From: a virus
Virus record (IMG/VR): IMGVR_UViG_3300025632_000096
Span: 1-21,902 of that record
Reading direction: 5' to 3' (one strand)
Length of the DNA: 21,902 nucleotides
Shown: positions 12,876-21,785 of the stretch, in pieces
How positions within the stretch are numbered: position 1 is the stretch's first letter
Layout: every line of letters starts with the position of its first letter
Translations under genes and position numbers: made by a program
The notes under the pieces: generated by a model
The model's database searches: none
Told to the model about the DNA's origin: nothing
The model's input: only the letters and a program-made list of their open reading frames with translations

Positions 12876-15800
12876 ATGACAATAGTAATAGCAAATAACT
12901 CACCAAGAGTATCATATACAGTAGCAGAAGGTGCAACACAGACAAGTTTTGCGGTATCATTTGAGTTTTTTGCTGATGCTGACCTTAACTTTATTGTTGA
13001 TGGTACTACTAAAACATTAACCACGCATTACACTGTTAGTGGAGGTGATGGTAGTACAGGAACTATAACTACAACAGCAGGAAATACAGTCACTGGAATT
13101 AGTGGCGGTAGTACGGTCGTTATTACTAGAGACATTTCTTTAGAAAGAGTGACAGACTTTCCAGCCCAAGGCTCATTCCAAATATCTTCATTGAATACAG
13201 AGCTAGATAGATTTACTGCAATTGCGGCTGACCTTAATGACAAAGCTAATCGTGCTATACAAACTACAGATTACGATACGGCTGTTTCTGTGACTCTTCC
13301 CTTGGTTGCAGATAGAAAAGGTAAAGTTCTTGCCTTTAATGCTTCTACTGGTGCAGTCGAGGCTGGACCTTCTACCTCTGACGTACAGACAGTATCAGCC
13401 AATGCCGCCTCAGTGGCTCTATTAGGCACTAGTGACGCTGTTGCAGACATGAATACACTAGCAACATCGGCAATTGTTGAAGATATGAACTTATTAGGCA
13501 CAGCTGCTGTTGTAGAAGATATGGGTTTGCTTGCAACATCTGCAGTTATAGAGGACATGGGGCTGTTAGCTACGTCTGCTGTTATTGAGGATATGGGATT
13601 ACTTGCTACATCTGCAAATGTAACGGCAATGGGTTTGTTAGGAACATCGGCAGTCATCGAGGACATGGGTATATTATCTGCGAGTGATGTTGTTGCTGAT
13701 ATGGCTTTGTTAGCTACTACAGATATAGTTGCAGATATGGCTTTGTTAGCTAACAGTGATGTAATTGCTGATATGAATACTTTAGCCACAAGTGCTATAG
13801 TTGCTGACTTAAACATACTAGCTACTACTGACATAGTTGCTGACATGGCAATATTAGCAACGTCAGATATAGTATCTGATTTAAATACCCTTGCTACTTC
13901 CGATATTGTAAGTGATATAAATACATTAGCTACTTCTGATATAGTAAGTGATATTAATACTTTAGCTACTAGTGACATTGTTTCTGACTTAAACACTTTA
14001 GCTACGAGCGATATAGTTACTGATTTAAATTTATTAGCTACTAGTGCAATAGTAGATGACCTTAATTTACTAGCAACATCTACTGTTATTGCTGACATGG
14101 CTACTCTTGCTGGTGGCGGTGCTAATCCTAACATAACTTCTGTTACTGCTTCTGGTGAAATAGCGGCAGCAAGTTTAGATATTTCTGGTAATATTGATAT
14201 TGACGGAATTAGTAACCTAGATATTGTAGACGTAGATGGTGCAGCTAACTTTGCCGCAGACGTAACCTTTGCAGATGGCGCAGATATTATCACTGCTTCA
14301 GCAGGTACATCTAACTTCAGAGCAGGTGTCAACGCAGGTAACTCAATAGAATCTGGTGGTAATTTCAACACTGTCGTGGGTGACGAAGCTGGTACTGCGA
14401 TTACTACTGGGGATGGTAATACATTTGTAGGTTATGCCACAGGTGACGCTATTACCACAGCAGGTAATAACACAGCAGTTGGTTATAATGCTCTAACAAC
14501 TAACACCACAGGAAGTAACATCACAGCAGTTGGTAAGACTGCTTTAACTTCTAACACCACAGGAATACAGAACAATGCTTTAGGTGCTTCTGCTTTAAAT
14601 GACAATACTACAGGTAACTACAACAACGCAATGGGTGTAAGTGCTTTAGGCGACAACACTACTGGTGATAATAATACTGCGGTTGGTCACGATGCTTTAA
14701 GATTAAACACTACAGCAGATGACAACACAGCAGTCGGATACGATGCAATGGCTGCTAACACTACAGGTGCTTTAAACACAGCAATAGGTAAGTCTGCTTT
14801 AGACGCTAATACTACAGGTTCTAGTAACACAGCACTTGGCAGAAACTCCCTTGGTAGTAACACTACAGCAGGTAATAACACAGCACTTGGACATAATGCT
14901 TTGCTAGCTAACACTACAGGTGCTTTTAACACAGCCGTTGGTACTGCATCTTTAGATGCTAACACTACAGCGAGTGGCAACACAGCCGTTGGCTATAATT
15001 CTTTAACCGCTAACACTACAGGTGCTAGTAACGTAGCTGTAGGAAGAGATGCTTTAGCTGCTAACACTACAGCAAATAACAACAACGCCTTTGGTTATCA
15101 GGCACTTTTAACTAACACCACAGGTACTTTAAATACAGCATTTGGTGGTGTTGCCTTAAAATTAAACACGACAGGCGCACGAAACACTGCTATTGGCACT
15201 TTTACACTTGATGCCAACACGACAGGCGGCAACAACACATCAGTTGGTAATGCATCAATGTCAAGTAACACTACAGGTAGTAACAATGTTGCGCTGGGTT
15301 CGTATGTACTTGGAGCCAACACAACAGCAGATAACAACACCGCAGTTGGGTATCAGGCTTTAGACGCTAACACTACAGGTGCTAGTAATACAGCAGTTGG
15401 TAAGTCTGCTTTAGGAGCTGCAACAACAGCATCTGGTAATACAGCAGTTGGTATTAACTCAGCGGATGCTATTACTACAGGGTATCACAACGTAGCTTTG
15501 GGTAGCTTTGCTTTATCTGCAAATGTAACAGGCAACCAAAATGTTGCTATAGGTTACGAGTCTCTATTTAATCACACTGGTAACAACACAACAGCGGTTG
15601 GTCACGATTCTTTAAAGGCTAATACAACGGGTACTTCAAACACTGCTTTAGGGTATAGGGCTTTAACATCTAACACTACACCAAATAACAACACAGCAGT
15701 TGGCTCAAATTCACTAGATGTAAACACTACAGGTGCTAACAACACAGCAGTTGGCAGCAATTCTTTAGGAGCAAACACTACAGCAGATAACAACACAGCC

Positions 15801-16979
15801 CTTGGTTATCTAGCTTTAACAACTAACACTACAGGCTCTTTAAACACGGCTGTTGGTGGTGATACATTAAAACTTAATACTACAGGCGCACAGAATGTTG
15901 CTGTTGGAATGTACACCTTAAACGCAAACACTACAGCCTCACAAAATACAGCAGTTGGTTATGCCGCTATGCTATCTACCACCACAGGTGCTAGTAACGT
16001 AGCCGTTGGTGGAAATGCCCTAGACGCAAACACTACAGGTGCTTCAAATGTTTCAGTTGGTTGGAACTCACTGACAACAAATACAACCGCTAGTAATAAT
16101 ACTGCCGTTGGGCAAAGCTCTTTAGGGTTGAATACTACAGGTACTGGTAACACAGCCGTTGGTAAAGGTGCATTAGATGCAAATACAACTGCTAATTACA
16201 ATACTGCTGTAGGTTTAGACGCTTTAGGAACAAATACTACAGGCACAAATAATAATGCATTTGGAGAAACTGCTCTTTTTTCTAATACGACAGGTAGTAA
16301 TAATCAGGCTATTGGTAGAGGAGCGTTAGAGCAAAATACCACAGCATCTAACAACAGTGCGTTTGGGCATAATGCTTTAAAAGCTAACACTACAGGTACT
16401 AACAACGTAGCAGTTGGTATAAATGCTGGTGTAAGTCTTACTTCTGGAAATAATGGTATATTTCTAGGAAAAGATGCAGGTCTAACAGGAAGCCCGGGAG
16501 GCAATATAACCTCTGCGAATAATATTTTAGTTATTGGTGATGAAAATATTACAGCATCAAACATCCAAGTAGATTGGACAGTAGCCTCTGACCAAAGAGA
16601 TAAGACAGACTTTACAGCCCTAGATTTAGGCTTAGACTTTGTTAAGGCACTTGCTCCTGTAACATACAAGTGGGATAAACGTAGCAAGTATGGCGATAAG
16701 TCTGCTGATGATTATGATTTAAATGCACAGACACCAGACGGTACACACAAAGAAGATTGGCTAGACATAGGCTTTAAGGCACAAGAAGTTCAAGCTCTTG
16801 AGGAAGCCGCTGGATATACAACTGCGGCTAAGAAAAACCTTACTGTATCTACATCAGGTGATGGTAAACAAATGGGTCTTCAGTACAGCAAGTTTGTACC
16901 AATCCTAGTAAAAGCAATACAAGAACTATCAGCAAAGAACGATGCTTTAGAAGCACGTCTAACAACCTTAGAAGGATAA
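12876..16979 (+). CDS. Tail fibre protein with T7-type anchor, two repeat domains and S74 chaperone
   Basis: A 1367-residue fibre. Residues 1-135 match the T7 gp17 N-terminal anchor that attaches to the nozzle: SYTVAEGATQTSFAVSFEFF, then HYTVSGGDGSTGTI, VITRDISLERVTDF and a final LDRFTAIAADLND. Residues 182-409 are 19 tandem 12-residue repeats. Residues 410-480 form a beta-rich linker (GDIDIDG, DVTFADGADI). About residues 484-1210 are repeats of the NTAVGxNALxxNTTGx type, 17 residues each, as in YadA-like trimeric beta-roll heads. The C-terminus is an S74 intramolecular chaperone with SDQRDK (Ser1238 and Lys1243, the Ser-Lys pair used for self-cleavage) and a final coiled coil (LVKAIQELSAKNDALEARL). 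The fibre should be a trimer and bind the host receptor; the specificity tip is probably in the repeat domain that remains after cleavage. Confidence 0.92.
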   Translation: MTIVIANNSPRVSYTVAEGATQTSFAVSFEFFADADLNFIVDGTTKTLTTHYTVSGGDGSTGTITTTAGNTVTGISGGSTVVITRDISLERVTDFPAQGSFQISSLNTELDRFTAIAADLNDKANRAIQTTDYDTAVSVTLPLVADRKGKVLAFNASTGAVEAGPSTSDVQTVSANAASVALLGTSDAVADMNTLATSAIVEDMNLLGTAAVVEDMGLLATSAVIEDMGLLATSAVIEDMGLLATSANVTAMGLLGTSAVIEDMGILSASDVVADMALLATTDIVADMALLANSDVIADMNTLATSAIVADLNILATTDIVADMAILATSDIVSDLNTLATSDIVSDINTLATSDIVSDINTLATSDIVSDLNTLATSDIVTDLNLLATSAIVDDLNLLATSTVIADMATLAGGGANPNITSVTASGEIAAASLDISGNIDIDGISNLDIVDVDGAANFAADVTFADGADIITASAGTSNFRAGVNAGNSIESGGNFNTVVGDEAGTAITTGDGNTFVGYATGDAITTAGNNTAVGYNALTTNTTGSNITAVGKTALTSNTTGIQNNALGASALNDNTTGNYNNAMGVSALGDNTTGDNNTAVGHDALRLNTTADDNTAVGYDAMAANTTGALNTAIGKSALDANTTGSSNTALGRNSLGSNTTAGNNTALGHNALLANTTGAFNTAVGTASLDANTTASGNTAVGYNSLTANTTGASNVAVGRDALAANTTANNNNAFGYQALLTNTTGTLNTAFGGVALKLNTTGARNTAIGTFTLDANTTGGNNTSVGNASMSSNTTGSNNVALGSYVLGANTTADNNTAVGYQALDANTTGASNTAVGKSALGAATTASGNTAVGINSADAITTGYHNVALGSFALSANVTGNQNVAIGYESLFNHTGNNTTAVGHDSLKANTTGTSNTALGYRALTSNTTPNNNTAVGSNSLDVNTTGANNTAVGSNSLGANTTADNNTALGYLALTTNTTGSLNTAVGGDTLKLNTTGAQNVAVGMYTLNANTTASQNTAVGYAAMLSTTTGASNVAVGGNALDANTTGASNVSVGWNSLTTNTTASNNTAVGQSSLGLNTTGTGNTAVGKGALDANTTANYNTAVGLDALGTNTTGTNNNAFGETALFSNTTGSNNQAIGRGALEQNTTASNNSAFGHNALKANTTGTNNVAVGINAGVSLTSGNNGIFLGKDAGLTGSPGGNITSANNILVIGDENITASNIQVDWTVASDQRDKTDFTALDLGLDFVKALAPVTYKWDKRSKYGDKSADDYDLNAQTPDGTHKEDWLDIGFKAQEVQALEEAAGYTTAAKKNLTVSTSGDGKQMGLQYSKFVPILVKAIQELSAKNDALEARLTTLEG
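13419..14102 (+). repeat. Nineteen tandem 36-base repeats (12-residue units) in the tail fibre gene
   Basis: The coding repeats run exactly from the codon of residue 182 to that of residue 409 without length variation: 19 units of 12 residues. The consensus is LLATSxIVxDMN, with Leu/Thr at position 1, Leu at 2, Ala/Gly at 3, Thr at 4, Ile/Val at 7-8 and Asp-Met/Leu/Ile at 10-11. Units 13-17 are nearly identical in protein but differ at many synonymous sites. Similar short 'xDxxTLAT' repeats occur in other phage fibres as elongated shaft segments. Here they probably form the shaft between anchor and head. Confidence 0.9.
14466..16451 (+). repeat. Thirty-nine tandem 51-base repeats (17-residue YadA-head-like units)
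   Basis: Units follow the pattern NNTAVGYNALTxNTTGx; I count 39 units from the one starting with AAT at 14466 to the one ending at 16451. One unit (NVAIGYESLFNHTGN type, the 24th in the wider count) has 16 residues instead of 17. Degenerate units flank both sides (about 14350-14465 and 16452-16500). The invariant parts are the [AV]-[VIL]-G turn in the first third and the NTT turn near the end. YadA-type heads use NSVAIG-like repeats of about 14 residues to form left-handed trimeric beta-rolls; here each coil would be about three residues longer. Confidence 0.92.
16587..16979 (+). other. S74 peptidase/intramolecular chaperone domain of the tail fibre
   Basis: The domain starts at TCT (16587, Ser1238) in the motif SDQRDK. 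Ser1238 and Lys1243 have the five-residue spacing of the Ser-Lys dyad in K1F-type endosialidase chaperones, so cleavage between Ala1237 and Ser1238 is expected after trimer folding, releasing about 130 residues. Downstream features typical of the family are the KALAPVTYKWDKR segment, the DIGFKAQEVQALEE segment and the terminal LQYSKFVPILVKAIQEL coiled coil. Confidence 0.88.
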
Positions 16980-16985
16980 ACTAAA

Positions 16986-17231
16986 ATGACAGATAGAACA
17001 GACGCAGAACTACTACAAGACTTTACAGCAATGGGTCACTCCATAGCACTCATTACAGATGTAATAGCTGGAAACGCTATGGCTGGTGAATCAGCCGCAG
17101 ATAGACAATCAGCAGTAGACAGAAATGTTGAGCATCTTGAGCTAATGAAAGCTAAAACAGACTGGGGCAGTGAGTCAATGACAGCTACAACTAATGCAAT
17201 TACAGCTGGTAAAGGTTACACTGCTTCGTAA
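16986..17231 (+). CDS. Small conserved-type protein of unknown function
   Basis: An 81-residue protein starting 6 bases after the tail fibre stop. The sequence is helical, acidic at the start (TDRTDAELLQDFTAMG), with a central segment SAADRQSAVDRNVEHLELM and a Ser/Thr-rich end (TATTNAITAGKGYTAS). I recall similar short proteins with 'DRNVEHLExMxAKxDW' directly after tail fibre genes in marine phages, always of unknown function. No signal peptide, membrane segment or catalytic motif is present. Its position suggests a late gene made with the fibre, perhaps a fibre assembly helper or small virion protein, but this is only inferred. Its TAA overlaps the next ATG by one base. Confidence 0.65.
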   Translation: MTDRTDAELLQDFTAMGHSIALITDVIAGNAMAGESAADRQSAVDRNVEHLELMKAKTDWGSESMTATTNAITAGKGYTAS

Positions 17232-17779
17232 TGTTATCTAGGTTAATTTATATTAGTTTGCTGTTGTTATGTGCGACAGCAGGGGGGGCTTTATCTGCTG
17301 ACTCTAATACTGTTTCCTCCACAGTTGTCACGGACAAAGCTCCTCCAACAGCATCAGCTCCCTCTGTTGTAGTTAACAACTCAGATGTCTGTAAGACTGG
17401 TGCGTCTGCTGCTATTCAAACACAGATACTTGGCATAGCTAGTGGCATTGCTATTCCTGATTTAAATTGTGAAAGACTAAAACTATCTAGGTCATTGTAT
17501 GCTATGGGTATGAAAGTAGCAGCTGTGTCTACTTTATGCCAAGACTATCGTGTCTTTGATGCTATGGCTATGTCCAATACTTTCTGTCCTTATATGGGTA
17601 AGATAGGTGAAGATGCACAAATTGAATGGAAAAAGAATTTTAATTTAATTCCTAAAGGTTCTGTTATTAAAGATTTATACACACCAAAACCAACTAAGAG
17701 AGTAACAAGTGAAACACCTATTCAAGTTGACCCAAAGAAAGGCATTATTGGCGTGCTGCTTATGCTGCTTATTCTTTAG
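17231..17779 (+). CDS. Putative exported protein with four cysteines and hydrophobic C-terminus
   Basis: A 182-residue protein. Residues 1-23 look like a Sec signal peptide (positive Arg4, hydrophobic LIYISLLLLCATA, likely cut after LSA at residue 23). The mature part has a Ser/Thr/Val/Pro-rich linker (24-50), then a compact helical region with Cys54, Cys80, Cys103 and Cys119, enough for two disulfides. The core motif (CKTGASAAIQTQILGI ... NCERLKLSRSLYAMGMKVAAVSTLCQD) is one I associate with unnamed marine phage proteins. The last 12 residues (GIIGVLLMLLIL) are hydrophobic and could anchor in a membrane. The stop lies 71 bases inside the next gene. Function unknown; periplasmic or virion-surface roles are possible. 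Confidence 0.7.
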   Translation: MLSRLIYISLLLLCATAGGALSADSNTVSSTVVTDKAPPTASAPSVVVNNSDVCKTGASAAIQTQILGIASGIAIPDLNCERLKLSRSLYAMGMKVAAVSTLCQDYRVFDAMAMSNTFCPYMGKIGEDAQIEWKKNFNLIPKGSVIKDLYTPKPTKRVTSETPIQVDPKKGIIGVLLMLLIL

Positions 17780-19226
17780 CGTACAAAAAACTGTTAGCCA
17801 AACGTGCGTTGTTGATACAGTAGGACTATGTGACCCTGCTGTTGATGTGTCTATTGAATCTGAAGTAGTGACTGAAAGTTTTACTGACTCTACTGGGATT
17901 ACTACTATAGAAACTACTACTTCTGTTACCACCACTACTACTGTTACTAATGAAGACTCAGGAGATTTACTTAATTCTGAAAGTGGATACGTAACTTCTA
18001 CTAAAGAAGGTGATATGGATTCTGATTGGGGTGGTGAAGGTCCTGCTTCTATGCCCTCTGGTTCTACATGTGCAGATTTAGGCACAGATAAATGCGCTCA
18101 AATAACAGGGTCTGGTAATGGCACTAGTAATAATGGTGTTACTGGTATGGGTAGTACTTTTGTTCAGACAATAGACATTAGTAATTTAAATATAAGCGAT
18201 GGTGGTCAAGTAACTTATACTATCGAAGTAGTTAAAGAAGATAGTGAAGACTCTATTTACTTTCATGTTACTGGTAATAATGGGTCGGTATTAAATTTTT
18301 CAAGTACTGATATACTCTCAGCATCTGGTGTTAATAGTGGATATGCTTCTTATACTGGTGGTTTTAATTTTGGTGGAAATCTAACTAGTCTTATCGTAGA
18401 AATAGGTGGTCGAGATATTAACTTAGCTATCGGCCCGATGTTTGATGATGTAACTGTAAATGTTTTATACAATGTTATTAATACTATTATTACTCAGAAC
18501 ATTACTACTATAGAGACTTTTATTGCTTTAAATCTAGGTAGCGGTGATGTTGCTATTGATATAGCCGAAGATATATTTGAACATAATGATGTTATCGAGG
18601 TAGATGGCATTACTATAATTGAGCCAATGAAAGGACCAAACGATGCGACTTACGATTCAGTTGAACTTGAACTCGATTCGCCAGTTATTGAGGCGATTGA
18701 TATTAAAATGGACACGCAAACCCAAGGAGGAGATACCAATGTATATGCAGAAACCAACCAAGAAGCCAGCGTCGAAGCCGAGCTTGAAGCCAAAGAAGAG
18801 CCTAAAGAAACCACCATCGTTAAAATCAAAGCCGTCAAAGAAGAAGTAGTTAAAGTTGCTGAGGTAGTTGAAGAGGAGGTAGAGGTTAAGGAAGAGGCTG
18901 AGAAAGAAGAGCCAGTTAAGAAAGCAGAGGTTAAGAAAAATACTAAGCAACAAAAACAAAAGGTTGCTAACAAGATAGTAAAAGAGATGGGTTCTAAAGG
19001 TAGGTATGATGATGCCAACCAATTTAAAACCTTGATGATTATGTCTGTTCTCGCTGATAACAAGAGTTTCTTTAACAACCAGACTCCATTGGTTGATACT
19101 GTAAAATTATTTTCCAATGATACAATACCTGATGGTGTTATTAATGATAACAATATGGCTTTATTTTTAATGAAATATGGTGCTGATGCGTCAATGACTG
19201 CGTTAGTAGACATACAATATAGATAG
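17709..19226 (+). CDS. Putative exported modular protein with charged linker (GTG start)
   Basis: A 505-residue protein. A GTG at 17709 has AAGAGAG placed 7 bases upstream and gives a signal-peptide-like start (KHLFKLTQRK then ALLACCLCCLFF); the next in-frame ATG would remove this and much of the Thr-rich region. Residues about 32-110 are Thr/Ser/Glu-rich. Residues about 125-265 look beta-rich (QVTYTIEVVKEDSEDSIYFH, FGGNLTSLIVEIGG), possibly a lectin-like sandwich. Residues about 344-420 are a Glu/Lys/Val charged linker. The C-terminal domain has KIVKEMGSKGRYDDANQFKT and ends MTALVDIQYR; I recall comparable C-termini in unnamed marine phage proteins. The gene contains a nested gene in the +1 frame within the charged linker. 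Function is unknown; a virion-associated or surface role is plausible. Confidence 0.7.
   Translation: MKHLFKLTQRKALLACCLCCLFFSVQKTVSQTCVVDTVGLCDPAVDVSIESEVVTESFTDSTGITTIETTTSVTTTTTVTNEDSGDLLNSESGYVTSTKEGDMDSDWGGEGPASMPSGSTCADLGTDKCAQITGSGNGTSNNGVTGMGSTFVQTIDISNLNISDGGQVTYTIEVVKEDSEDSIYFHVTGNNGSVLNFSSTDILSASGVNSGYASYTGGFNFGGNLTSLIVEIGGRDINLAIGPMFDDVTVNVLYNVINTIITQNITTIETFIALNLGSGDVAIDIAEDIFEHNDVIEVDGITIIEPMKGPNDATYDSVELELDSPVIEAIDIKMDTQTQGGDTNVYAETNQEASVEAELEAKEEPKETTIVKIKAVKEEVVKVAEVVEEEVEVKEEAEKEEPVKKAEVKKNTKQQKQKVANKIVKEMGSKGRYDDANQFKTLMIMSVLADNKSFFNNQTPLVDTVKLFSNDTIPDGVINDNNMALFLMKYGADASMTALVDIQYR
18739..18849 (+). CDS. Nested +1-frame gene for a 36-residue Lys/Pro/Ser-rich basic peptide
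   Basis: ATG at 18739 is preceded by AAGGAGGAG (18724-18732), one of the strongest Shine-Dalgarno sequences in the window, at ideal spacing (6 bases). The peptide starts MYMQKPTKKPASKP and ends KSKPSKKK; it has about 15 Lys and 8 Pro among 36 residues and almost no acidic residue. It is read in the +1 frame inside the 505-residue protein gene. Over exactly this stretch the outer frame uses GCC for 4 of 5 Ala, ACC for 3 of 3 Thr and ATC for 2 of 2 Ile. Downstream of the nested stop these are 1/10, 1/6 and 0/5. Those third-position C bases are the second bases of the Pro and Ser codons of the nested frame, suggesting selection on it. The product would be expected to bind nucleic acid or membranes. 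Confidence 0.72.
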   Translation: MYMQKPTKKPASKPSLKPKKSLKKPPSLKSKPSKKK

Positions 19227-19234
19227 GAAATAAT

Positions 19235-19375
19235 ATGGTTAAGAAAAAAGGACTATACGCTAACATGAACGCGCGTAAAAAAGCTGGCACATCACGCTCA
19301 AAGAAAAACAGTACAGTTACTGACAAAGCTTACTCTAATATGAAAGCTGGTTTCCCTAAAAAGAAAGGTAAGTAG
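19235..19375 (+). CDS. Small basic protein, KKGLYAN type
   Basis: A 46-residue protein beginning 8 bases after the 505-residue protein, with AGGAAA as ribosome binding site. It starts MVKKKGLYANMNARKKAGTS and ends KAGFPKKKGK; about a third of the residues are Lys or Arg, with two YxNM repeats (YANM at 8-11, YSNM at 33-36) each followed by a basic stretch. I know 'KKGLYANI(H/N)' peptides of 40-50 residues from marine cyanophages and pelagiphages, always unnamed. Its charge suggests DNA or RNA binding or packaging with DNA, but no function is known. The stop is followed one base later by the nuclease start. It is too short for ordinary ORF calling at a 60-residue cut-off. Confidence 0.75.
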   Translation: MVKKKGLYANMNARKKAGTSRSKKNSTVTDKAYSNMKAGFPKKKGK

Positions 19376-19376
19376 T

Positions 19377-19778
19377 ATGTATGAATACGCAGTTAAGAAA
19401 ATAGTTTATGTAGTTGATGGTGACACAGTAGACATAGAAATAGATTTAGGTTTTAATCTAACTAAGAAAGAACGTGTCCGTCTAGCTGGAATTGATACAC
19501 CTGAGAGTAGAACTAGAGACTTAGCTGAGAAAGAATTAGGTCTTAGAGCTAAAGATTATTTAAAGCAAATGCTAAAAGATTCTAAGAATTTAACAGTACA
19601 GACATCTAAAGATGGTAAGTATGGTAGAATGTTAGGTTGGTTTTATGATAAGGAATTAAATATTAATCTAGATATGGTTGAGAATGGACATGCTTGGGCA
19701 TATGATGGTGGCACTAAGGTTAAAAACTTAGAAGATTTAATTGCAATACAAGGAGATAGAAATGAAACTAACATATAG
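19377..19778 (+). CDS. Staphylococcal-nuclease-like (SNase/thermonuclease) enzyme
   Basis: A 133-residue protein. The OB-fold nuclease motifs are all present: VVDGDTVDIEI at residues 12-22, VRLAGIDTPE at 34-43, KYGRMLG at 81-87, and NLDMVENGHAWAY near residues 100-112. Arg35, Asp40, Glu43 and Arg84 correspond to the phosphate-binding, calcium-binding and catalytic residues of staphylococcal nuclease. The family cuts single- and double-stranded DNA or RNA with calcium. No signal peptide is present, so it probably acts inside the cell, perhaps degrading host DNA or processing phage DNA. The ribosome binding site is AAGAAAGG, in the end of the previous gene. The last 17 bases overlap a tiny membrane protein gene, suggesting coordinated translation. 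Confidence 0.9.
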   Translation: MYEYAVKKIVYVVDGDTVDIEIDLGFNLTKKERVRLAGIDTPESRTRDLAEKELGLRAKDYLKQMLKDSKNLTVQTSKDGKYGRMLGWFYDKELNINLDMVENGHAWAYDGGTKVKNLEDLIAIQGDRNETNI

Positions 19779-19845
19779 AAGATTAATAATTGGGCTTGTG
19801 ATTGCCTGTGCTGTTGTAATATATTTTATGGCTAAACAATTTTAA
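19762..19845 (+). CDS. 27-residue single-span membrane peptide
   Basis: ATG at 19762 follows AAGGAGA (19750-19756) at good spacing. The peptide starts MKLTYRRL, has a hydrophobic core IIGLVIACAVVIYF (residues 9-22) and ends MAKQF. It overlaps the nuclease end by 17 bases, and its TAA shares one base with the next ATG. The positively charged N-terminus predicts the N-in, C-out orientation. Such tiny single-span proteins near lysis genes can act as small holins, antiholins or membrane anchors; none of these can be decided here. The strong ribosome binding site and exact stop-start overlap with the downstream gene make a real gene likely. Confidence 0.68.
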   Translation: MKLTYRRLIIGLVIACAVVIYFMAKQF

Positions 19846-21176: not shown

Positions 21177-21628
21177 GTTTTAGATTATCAGATAGAAGTA
21201 CAGCTAAATTAGATAAGGTTGATTCTAATCTAGTTGCTTTAGTAAAGATGGCTATCTTAAAAACTAAAGTAGATTTTGGTGTGATATGTGGGTTGCGTAC
21301 TATCCAAGAGCAAAAGCTATTGGTTGATAAAGGTGTGTCACAAACTATGGATAGCAAACATATATCTGGTAGGGCGGTAGACCTTATGGCTTATGTAGGT
21401 AGTCGAGCATCATGGGAGTTAAACTTGTATGATGATATAGCTGACAGCATGAAGAAAGCATCTCAGTTAATTGGTGTGCCAGTACGCTGGGGTGCGGCTT
21501 GGCACATCAAAGATATTGCTGAGTATGAAGGTACAATGGAAGAGGCAATGAATGAGTATATAGATTTGCGTAGGTCGCAAGGTCGTCGTCCTTTTATTGA
21601 CGGTCCTCACTTCGAACTTGCTGGTTAA
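21173..21628 (+). CDS. Endolysin, M15-family L-alanyl-D-glutamate/carboxypeptidase type
   Basis: A 151-residue protein with the zinc-peptidase signature SKHISGRAVDL: His63 and Asp70 are the first two zinc ligands, and DGPHFEL near the end supplies Asp143 (catalytic) and His146 (third ligand). The spacing equals that in the T5 endolysin (His66, Asp73, Asp130-X-X-His133). GLRTIQEQ (residues 40-47) is the other conserved part. The enzyme cuts peptide cross-links or stems of peptidoglycan; release through the holin fits the missing signal peptide. It lies 4 bases overlapping the holin. The last 35 bases, which encode Asp143 and His146, overlap the end of the convergent HTH gene on the other strand. 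No strong terminator is evident after the gene; only a T7 run lies just after the stop. Confidence 0.9.
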   Translation: MSFRLSDRSTAKLDKVDSNLVALVKMAILKTKVDFGVICGLRTIQEQKLLVDKGVSQTMDSKHISGRAVDLMAYVGSRASWELNLYDDIADSMKKASQLIGVPVRWGAAWHIKDIAEYEGTMEEAMNEYIDLRRSQGRRPFIDGPHFELAG

Positions 21629-21785
21629 ATTTTTTTACTAGCTGGTATACTCTTGACGGACTTATATTAAATAGTTTGCCAACGCTTTTCATCGTATGCC
21701 TGCCCCCACAATGGGGACAAGCATCCTGATAAGTCTCTGCAATTTTTTTATTACGAGACTCTTTTACTCTACCTCGACCGCTCAT
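21594..21785 (-). CDS. Small helix-turn-helix protein with Cys/His loop insertion
   Basis: A 63-residue basic protein. After a short basic N-terminus (SGRGRVKESRN) comes a helix (KKIAETYQ), then a loop with CPHCGGRH (Cys23, His25, Cys26, His30), then a helix-turn-helix pattern MKSVGKLFNISPSRVYQLVKKF (residues 32-53) typical of recognition helices in homeodomain-like/sigma-region-4-like regulators. The Cys/His group could bind a zinc ion. It probably binds DNA, perhaps regulating the phage early-late switch. Its ATG lies in the stop codon of the preceding minus-strand gene (TAATG), so it belongs to that operon. It overlaps the endolysin gene tail to tail by 35 bases. Confidence 0.72.
   Translation of the reverse strand: MSGRGRVKESRNKKIAETYQDACPHCGGRHTMKSVGKLFNISPSRVYQLVKKFNQQVRSEDRQ

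Follow-up and report, generated by a model that had tools for sequence, protein, structure and literature searches.

The outer gene and the reading frame inside it

The window, by which we mean the whole 21,902-base stretch of DNA analysed here, comes from a virus record (IMG/VR IMGVR_UViG_3300025632_000096) and has the head, tail, holin and endolysin genes of a dsDNA tailed phage. Its major capsid protein is closest to that of pelagiphage EXVC031P Hodr, and we take the window to belong to a marine SAR11-type (pelagiphage-type) phage. On the plus strand, positions 17709-19226 hold a 505-codon open reading frame (ORF) with a GTG start in the ORF list, referred to here as the outer gene. Its product begins with a hydrophobic, signal-like stretch and is probably a secreted, exported protein. 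The family of this protein has at least 140 members in IMG/VR, from marine phages, and among named phage records only that of Pelagibacter phage HTVC115P contains a relative. Family members are laid out as a signal-peptide-like hydrophobic N terminus, a conserved region and a hypervariable acidic low-complexity linker, and most also have a small conserved C-terminal domain. The linkers change fast, through repeats and indels. The outer protein matched no family in Pfam, PHROG or PDB, a profile of its family gave no meaningful match among solved structures, no relatives were found in the prokaryote genomes searched, and its structure model had a pLDDT of 44. In one homologue (L073) the family C-terminal domain is swapped for unrelated sequence after the linker, which reflects either a natural fusion or a chimeric contig.

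The window contains other small or overlapping frames. The gene just upstream (17231-17779) shares 71 bases with the outer gene, read in a different frame, and encodes a product with a signal-like N terminus and a hydrophobic C terminus. Downstream on the plus strand lie a 46-residue Lys-rich small protein (19235-19375) that matches PHROG 25774, of unknown function, and a 27-residue single-pass hydrophobic peptide (MKLTYRRLIIGLVIACAVVIYFMAKQF; 19762-19845) that has the SD AAGGAGA, overlaps the end of a nuclease gene, abuts the ATG of the next gene and gave no family match. On the minus strand, a 63-residue ORF at 21594-21785, convergent with the endolysin gene, encodes a CxxC pair and a helix-turn-helix-like stretch (SVGKLFNISPSRVYQLVKKF), and a 366-codon antisense ORF at 13271-14371 is probably a product of the repeats of the tail-fibre gene that contains it (12876-16979).

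Over the acidic linker of the outer gene lies a second ORF, in the +1 frame, which runs on the plus strand from an ATG at 18739 to a TAG stop at 18847-18849 (18739-18849, 36 codons). It is preceded by an SD, AAGGAGGAG, at 18724-18732, with the spacer ATACCA between the two. With a duplex energy of -10.9 kcal/mol, this SD ranks first among those of the 537 ATGs of the window. A sequence-only reading of the window had described exactly this arrangement, an SD followed 6 bases later by an ATG at 18739 and 36 codons in the +1 frame of a 505-residue gene, and every element of it was verified in the sequence. That reading overlooked that the nested frame is already open from an ATG at 18643, with AAAGGA (18630-18635) 7 nt upstream, giving a long form of 68 codons (18643-18849). 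The nested ORF is thus complete, with SD, start and stop all lying inside another gene in a different frame.

Only three lineages have the nested frame with matching ends: A (the window, L002 and L009), B (L003 and L010) and C (L005-L008). Their outer proteins are 88% (B) and 64% (C) identical to that of the window, and their nested products 97% and 65% identical. Counted from the ATG equivalent to 18643, the nested frame has 68, 68 and 70 codons in A, B and C and stops at the equivalent place, and the start, SD and stop of the long form are kept in all three. The duplex energy of the long-form SD is -4.6 kcal/mol in the window and L003, and -9.8 kcal/mol at the L005 equivalent. Since the frame is open from 18643 and this is kept throughout, the nested product, as read from the DNA, could be 68-70 as well as 36-39 residues long. 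The start site of the short form is less constant: the ATG at 18739 is kept in lineages A and B, but lineage C lacks it and has instead, at the homologous position, an in-frame GTG (L005:3482) whose SD is just as strong (-10.5 kcal/mol). In relatives beyond these lineages, HTVC115P included, the nested ORF is absent, and the frame is filled with stops or holds unrelated ORFs. Among the relatives examined, the nested ORF is therefore more narrowly distributed than the gene that contains it.

A run of C-ending codons bounded by the nested frame

The outer gene changes its codon choice where the nested ORF lies. A segment fit with controls from the family and the window placed a run of C-ending outer codons at 18753-18836 on the plus strand; in this run 13 of the 16 codons able to end in C do so, compared with 55 of 387 in the rest of the gene. 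The corresponding run in L005 has 18 of 21, against 72 of 400 elsewhere. The codon counts that had first drawn attention to the overlap proved exact, both within it (Ala GCC 4/5, Thr ACC 3/3, Ile ATC 2/2) and from the nested stop onwards (1/10, 1/6 and 0/5, respectively), and before the overlap we counted 1/14, 5/44 and 4/30. The log-likelihood ratio of the run, 17.0, is the maximum for the window, where the next gene reaches 9.5. Among 193 large ORFs of related loci the highest ratios were 21.3, 17.0 and 15.7, followed by 11.7, and only homologues of the outer gene equalled the codon switch. When amino-acid-specific expectations were used and any third base was allowed, the runs of the clade scored 15.8-21.8 and those of other family members 9.0 or less. 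The codon switch goes far beyond chance.

The run is also bounded by the nested ORF. Both in the window and in L005, it opens 14-17 nt downstream of the short-form start and extends to the nested stop. Within the short ORF, the Lys, Glu and Gln codons end in A (14/16 in the window, 13/13 in L005) and G is nearly absent from outer third positions. Because the purine-ending codons of the run remain A-ending, import from a GC-rich donor is not the explanation. Between the window and L005, 11 of the 28 third positions of the run have changed (39%), and 6 of these are C in L005, where 1.0 would be expected (P = 2e-5); with L005 as the reference, the C excess is weak (3 versus 0.9 expected, P = 0.03). 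The extra residues that L005 has within the run also use C-ending codons.

The geometry of the two frames gives this pattern a possible meaning. The third base of an outer codon is the second base of a nested codon, where A or C yields Lys, Pro, Ser or Thr and T yields hydrophobic residues. The sequence-only reading had noted that third-position C makes the Pro and Ser codons of the nested frame. Given this correspondence, it is natural to read the signature as the outer gene spelling out a hydrophilic peptide in a second frame, and we infer that C-ending codons may have been selected to bar T and G from the nested second position, which would leave few hydrophobic residues there. This codon signature is the one signal left standing after every control.

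Openness, synonymous change and alternative explanations

The openness of the nested frame is weaker evidence. For the outer protein with the codon usage it has, the frame would be open at this fixed place with a probability of about 2e-4 or less, but for the longest +1 stop-free stretch anywhere in the gene P was 0.015, 0.12 and 0.035 in the three lineages. In the Glu-rich linkers of relatives the +1 frame can run for up to 100 codons without a stop, and several of these stretches are longer than the nested ORF; since open +1 frames are common in this family, openness alone says little, and after the scan correction and the family comparison we rejected it as evidence. The stretches of 86-100 codons in L070, L030, L077, L029 and L043 have unrelated, Lys/Asn/Gln/Leu-rich translations and look like by-products of Glu-rich coding. 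In addition, C-ending codons cannot make +1 stops, so that openness and the codon run are one fact rather than two. Two antisense ORFs over the nested region (187 and 121 residues) extend past the codon switch at 18849 and were set aside; Glu/Lys-rich codons can be expected to give long antisense ORFs.

The sequence-only reading had taken both frames to be under selection and had proposed synonymous-site suppression as the check. A deficit was found: between the window and L005, 5 of 31 sites had synonymous changes, fewer than a rate of 0.37 would give (binomial P = 0.009), and simulations gave 15.9 synonymous differences in the ORF for lineages A and C (5 observed) and 19 for A and B (0 observed). 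However, deficits as large or larger occur elsewhere, in many other pairs of the outer family, and once the synonymous rate was matched or the deficit allowed for, no frame was specifically conserved. Likewise, the window and L003 show no synonymous differences across 18600-18860, but this is not special, as other close pairs have difference-free blocks of 73-123 sites; long blocks of this kind between close relatives are probably due to mosaic exchange. The ratio of third- to first- and second-position changes in the linkers did not discriminate. In close comparisons, a hand count found 7 substitutions in the run, 4 of them silent in the nested frame and only 1 in the outer frame. The case for selection on both frames would thus rest on the codon signature and the start sites; the alignments, in which synonymous suppression is modest and not frame-specific, do not demonstrate it.

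The main rival account, less likely in our judgement, takes the run for a compositional accident: a linker segment with C-ending codons, gained by the common ancestor of the three lineages through a GAAGCC-like expansion or by import, would have decayed passively, with the SD incidental and no product made. Such a segment would keep the +1 frame open and K/P-rich automatically, which fits both the unexceptional openness and the conservation that singles out no frame. Both the window and L005 have three copies of GAAGCC, the linkers of the family are quick to change by repeats and indels, and the C content of roughly 80-86% in each lineage is what neutral decay from an all-C ancestor would be expected to leave, as inferred from rates. 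Against this, only a weak repeat was detected (2.6 copies, score 37), and much of the run consists of other sequence than GAAGCC. In other family members whose linkers are plainly repetitive, codon runs score 9.0 at most, whichever third base is considered. The residues added to the run in L005 are likewise C-ending, and the account does not explain why there are two strong SD/start sites in the same place.

A constraint on the RNA, either a structure or a C-rich, G-poor unstructured element such as a Rho-type loading site, appears very improbable. The run is A/C-rich and predicted to be unstructured, but its excess of C over G is unexceptional (524 of 21,824 windows rank higher), there is no surplus structure (z about +1), and neither the start and stop boundaries nor the restriction to third positions is predicted by such a constraint. 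Ribosomal frameshifting from the outer frame at a prfB-like internal SD, producing a truncated secreted protein with a basic tail, would account for a strong SD directly before the +1 segment, but we give it hardly any credence, as the window and L005 share no recognisable slippery codon and the spacing from the SD to the in-frame start after it is normal.

We therefore lean, with some reserve, towards a young overprinted nested gene whose core is the segment of 36-39 codons, possibly with a longer form from 18643. What favours an overprinted gene is that the run has diverged in lineage C and yet remains C-rich there, ending at the nested stop. The original proposal of a gene overprinted on a low-complexity linker remains the best explanation, as the signature recurs in a lineage with only 64% identity; its claim of dual-frame selection is not established by the alignments.

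The predicted product and comparison with known nested genes

Under the overprinting model, a young gene would have arisen in the DNA that encodes the linker of a probably secreted pelagiphage-type protein. Ribosomes would initiate within the outer mRNA at the SD at 18724-18732 and the ATG at 18739 to make a 36-residue polycationic, disordered K/P/S peptide, and the upstream ATG at 18643 might give a 68-residue form with an added helical N terminus. The predicted short form is K/P/S-rich, with 14 basic and no acidic residues and a pI of 10.8; the pI of the long form is 11.6. AlphaFold2 modelled the long form, from three sequences only, as a helix at residues 2-24 followed by disorder (mean pLDDT 66.6). 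Compared with shuffles, the amphipathicity of this helix gave P = 0.05 and 0.14, so an amphipathic character is suggestive only. Nothing similar to the nested product was found in Pfam, PHROGs or phage records, and a DNA search with the nested ORF returned no match except a 26-base chance hit. The product has no cysteine and no signal sequence. With the outer protein probably exported and no signal sequence on the nested peptide, the two should act in different compartments. If the gene exists, we tentatively suggest that its product might act late in infection as an accessory peptide in the cytoplasm, binding nucleic acid or anionic membrane. It is also conceivable, although we would not count on it, that this is a recent nested gene with two starts (68-70 and 36-39 residues) and a functional polycationic peptide, for which the outer codons were reshaped to supply Lys, Pro and Ser.

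Nested genes of known function offer partial parallels. The Rz1 spanin of lambda, whose gene lies inside Rz in another frame, is an outer-membrane lipoprotein that is rich in Pro and carries a signal peptide and a lipobox cysteine. The present locus resembles Rz/Rz1 in having a small other-frame ORF inside a larger dsDNA phage gene near the lysis region, but the outer protein is not Rz-like and the nested product has neither cysteine nor signal sequence. As neither product matches PHROG or Pfam either, an Rz1-type spanin does not fit. The single-gene lysis (sgl) genes of leviviruses are a close parallel: they sit within rep where it is poorly conserved, often in its +1 frame, are lineage-specific and of de novo origin, and several have been shown to lyse cells (PMC7693330). 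The nested ORF is likewise small, wholly inside a larger phage gene and over a poorly conserved part of it. However, sgl genes belong to RNA phages without other lysis genes, whereas this dsDNA tailed phage has both a holin and an endolysin and the nested peptide is hydrophilic and polycationic, and we discarded a sole lysis protein of the levivirus type. For young overprinted viral genes, a narrow distribution and a disordered product are expected (PMC8227390). The nested ORF resembles such de novo genes in its narrow distribution, disorder-promoting composition, unusual codon pattern and expected accessory role, but most curated cases (PMC8227390) come from eukaryotic viruses and have expression evidence, whereas the nested ORF is a prediction from phage sequence.

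Nested phage genes are already well known; the codon-level trace is unusually clear here. If real, the nested ORF would clearly exemplify how a gene can be born within a gene of a dsDNA phage: one clade has it and its relatives do not. A linker that tolerates change would host a second gene, with the codon choice of the outer gene visibly bent to serve it, and the acidic linkers of this family are likely nurseries for new genes. It would also mean that small overlapping genes are being missed in the annotation of abundant ocean phages, and a frame-bounded local run of codon choice behind an internal SD would provide a cheap signature with which to search for them.
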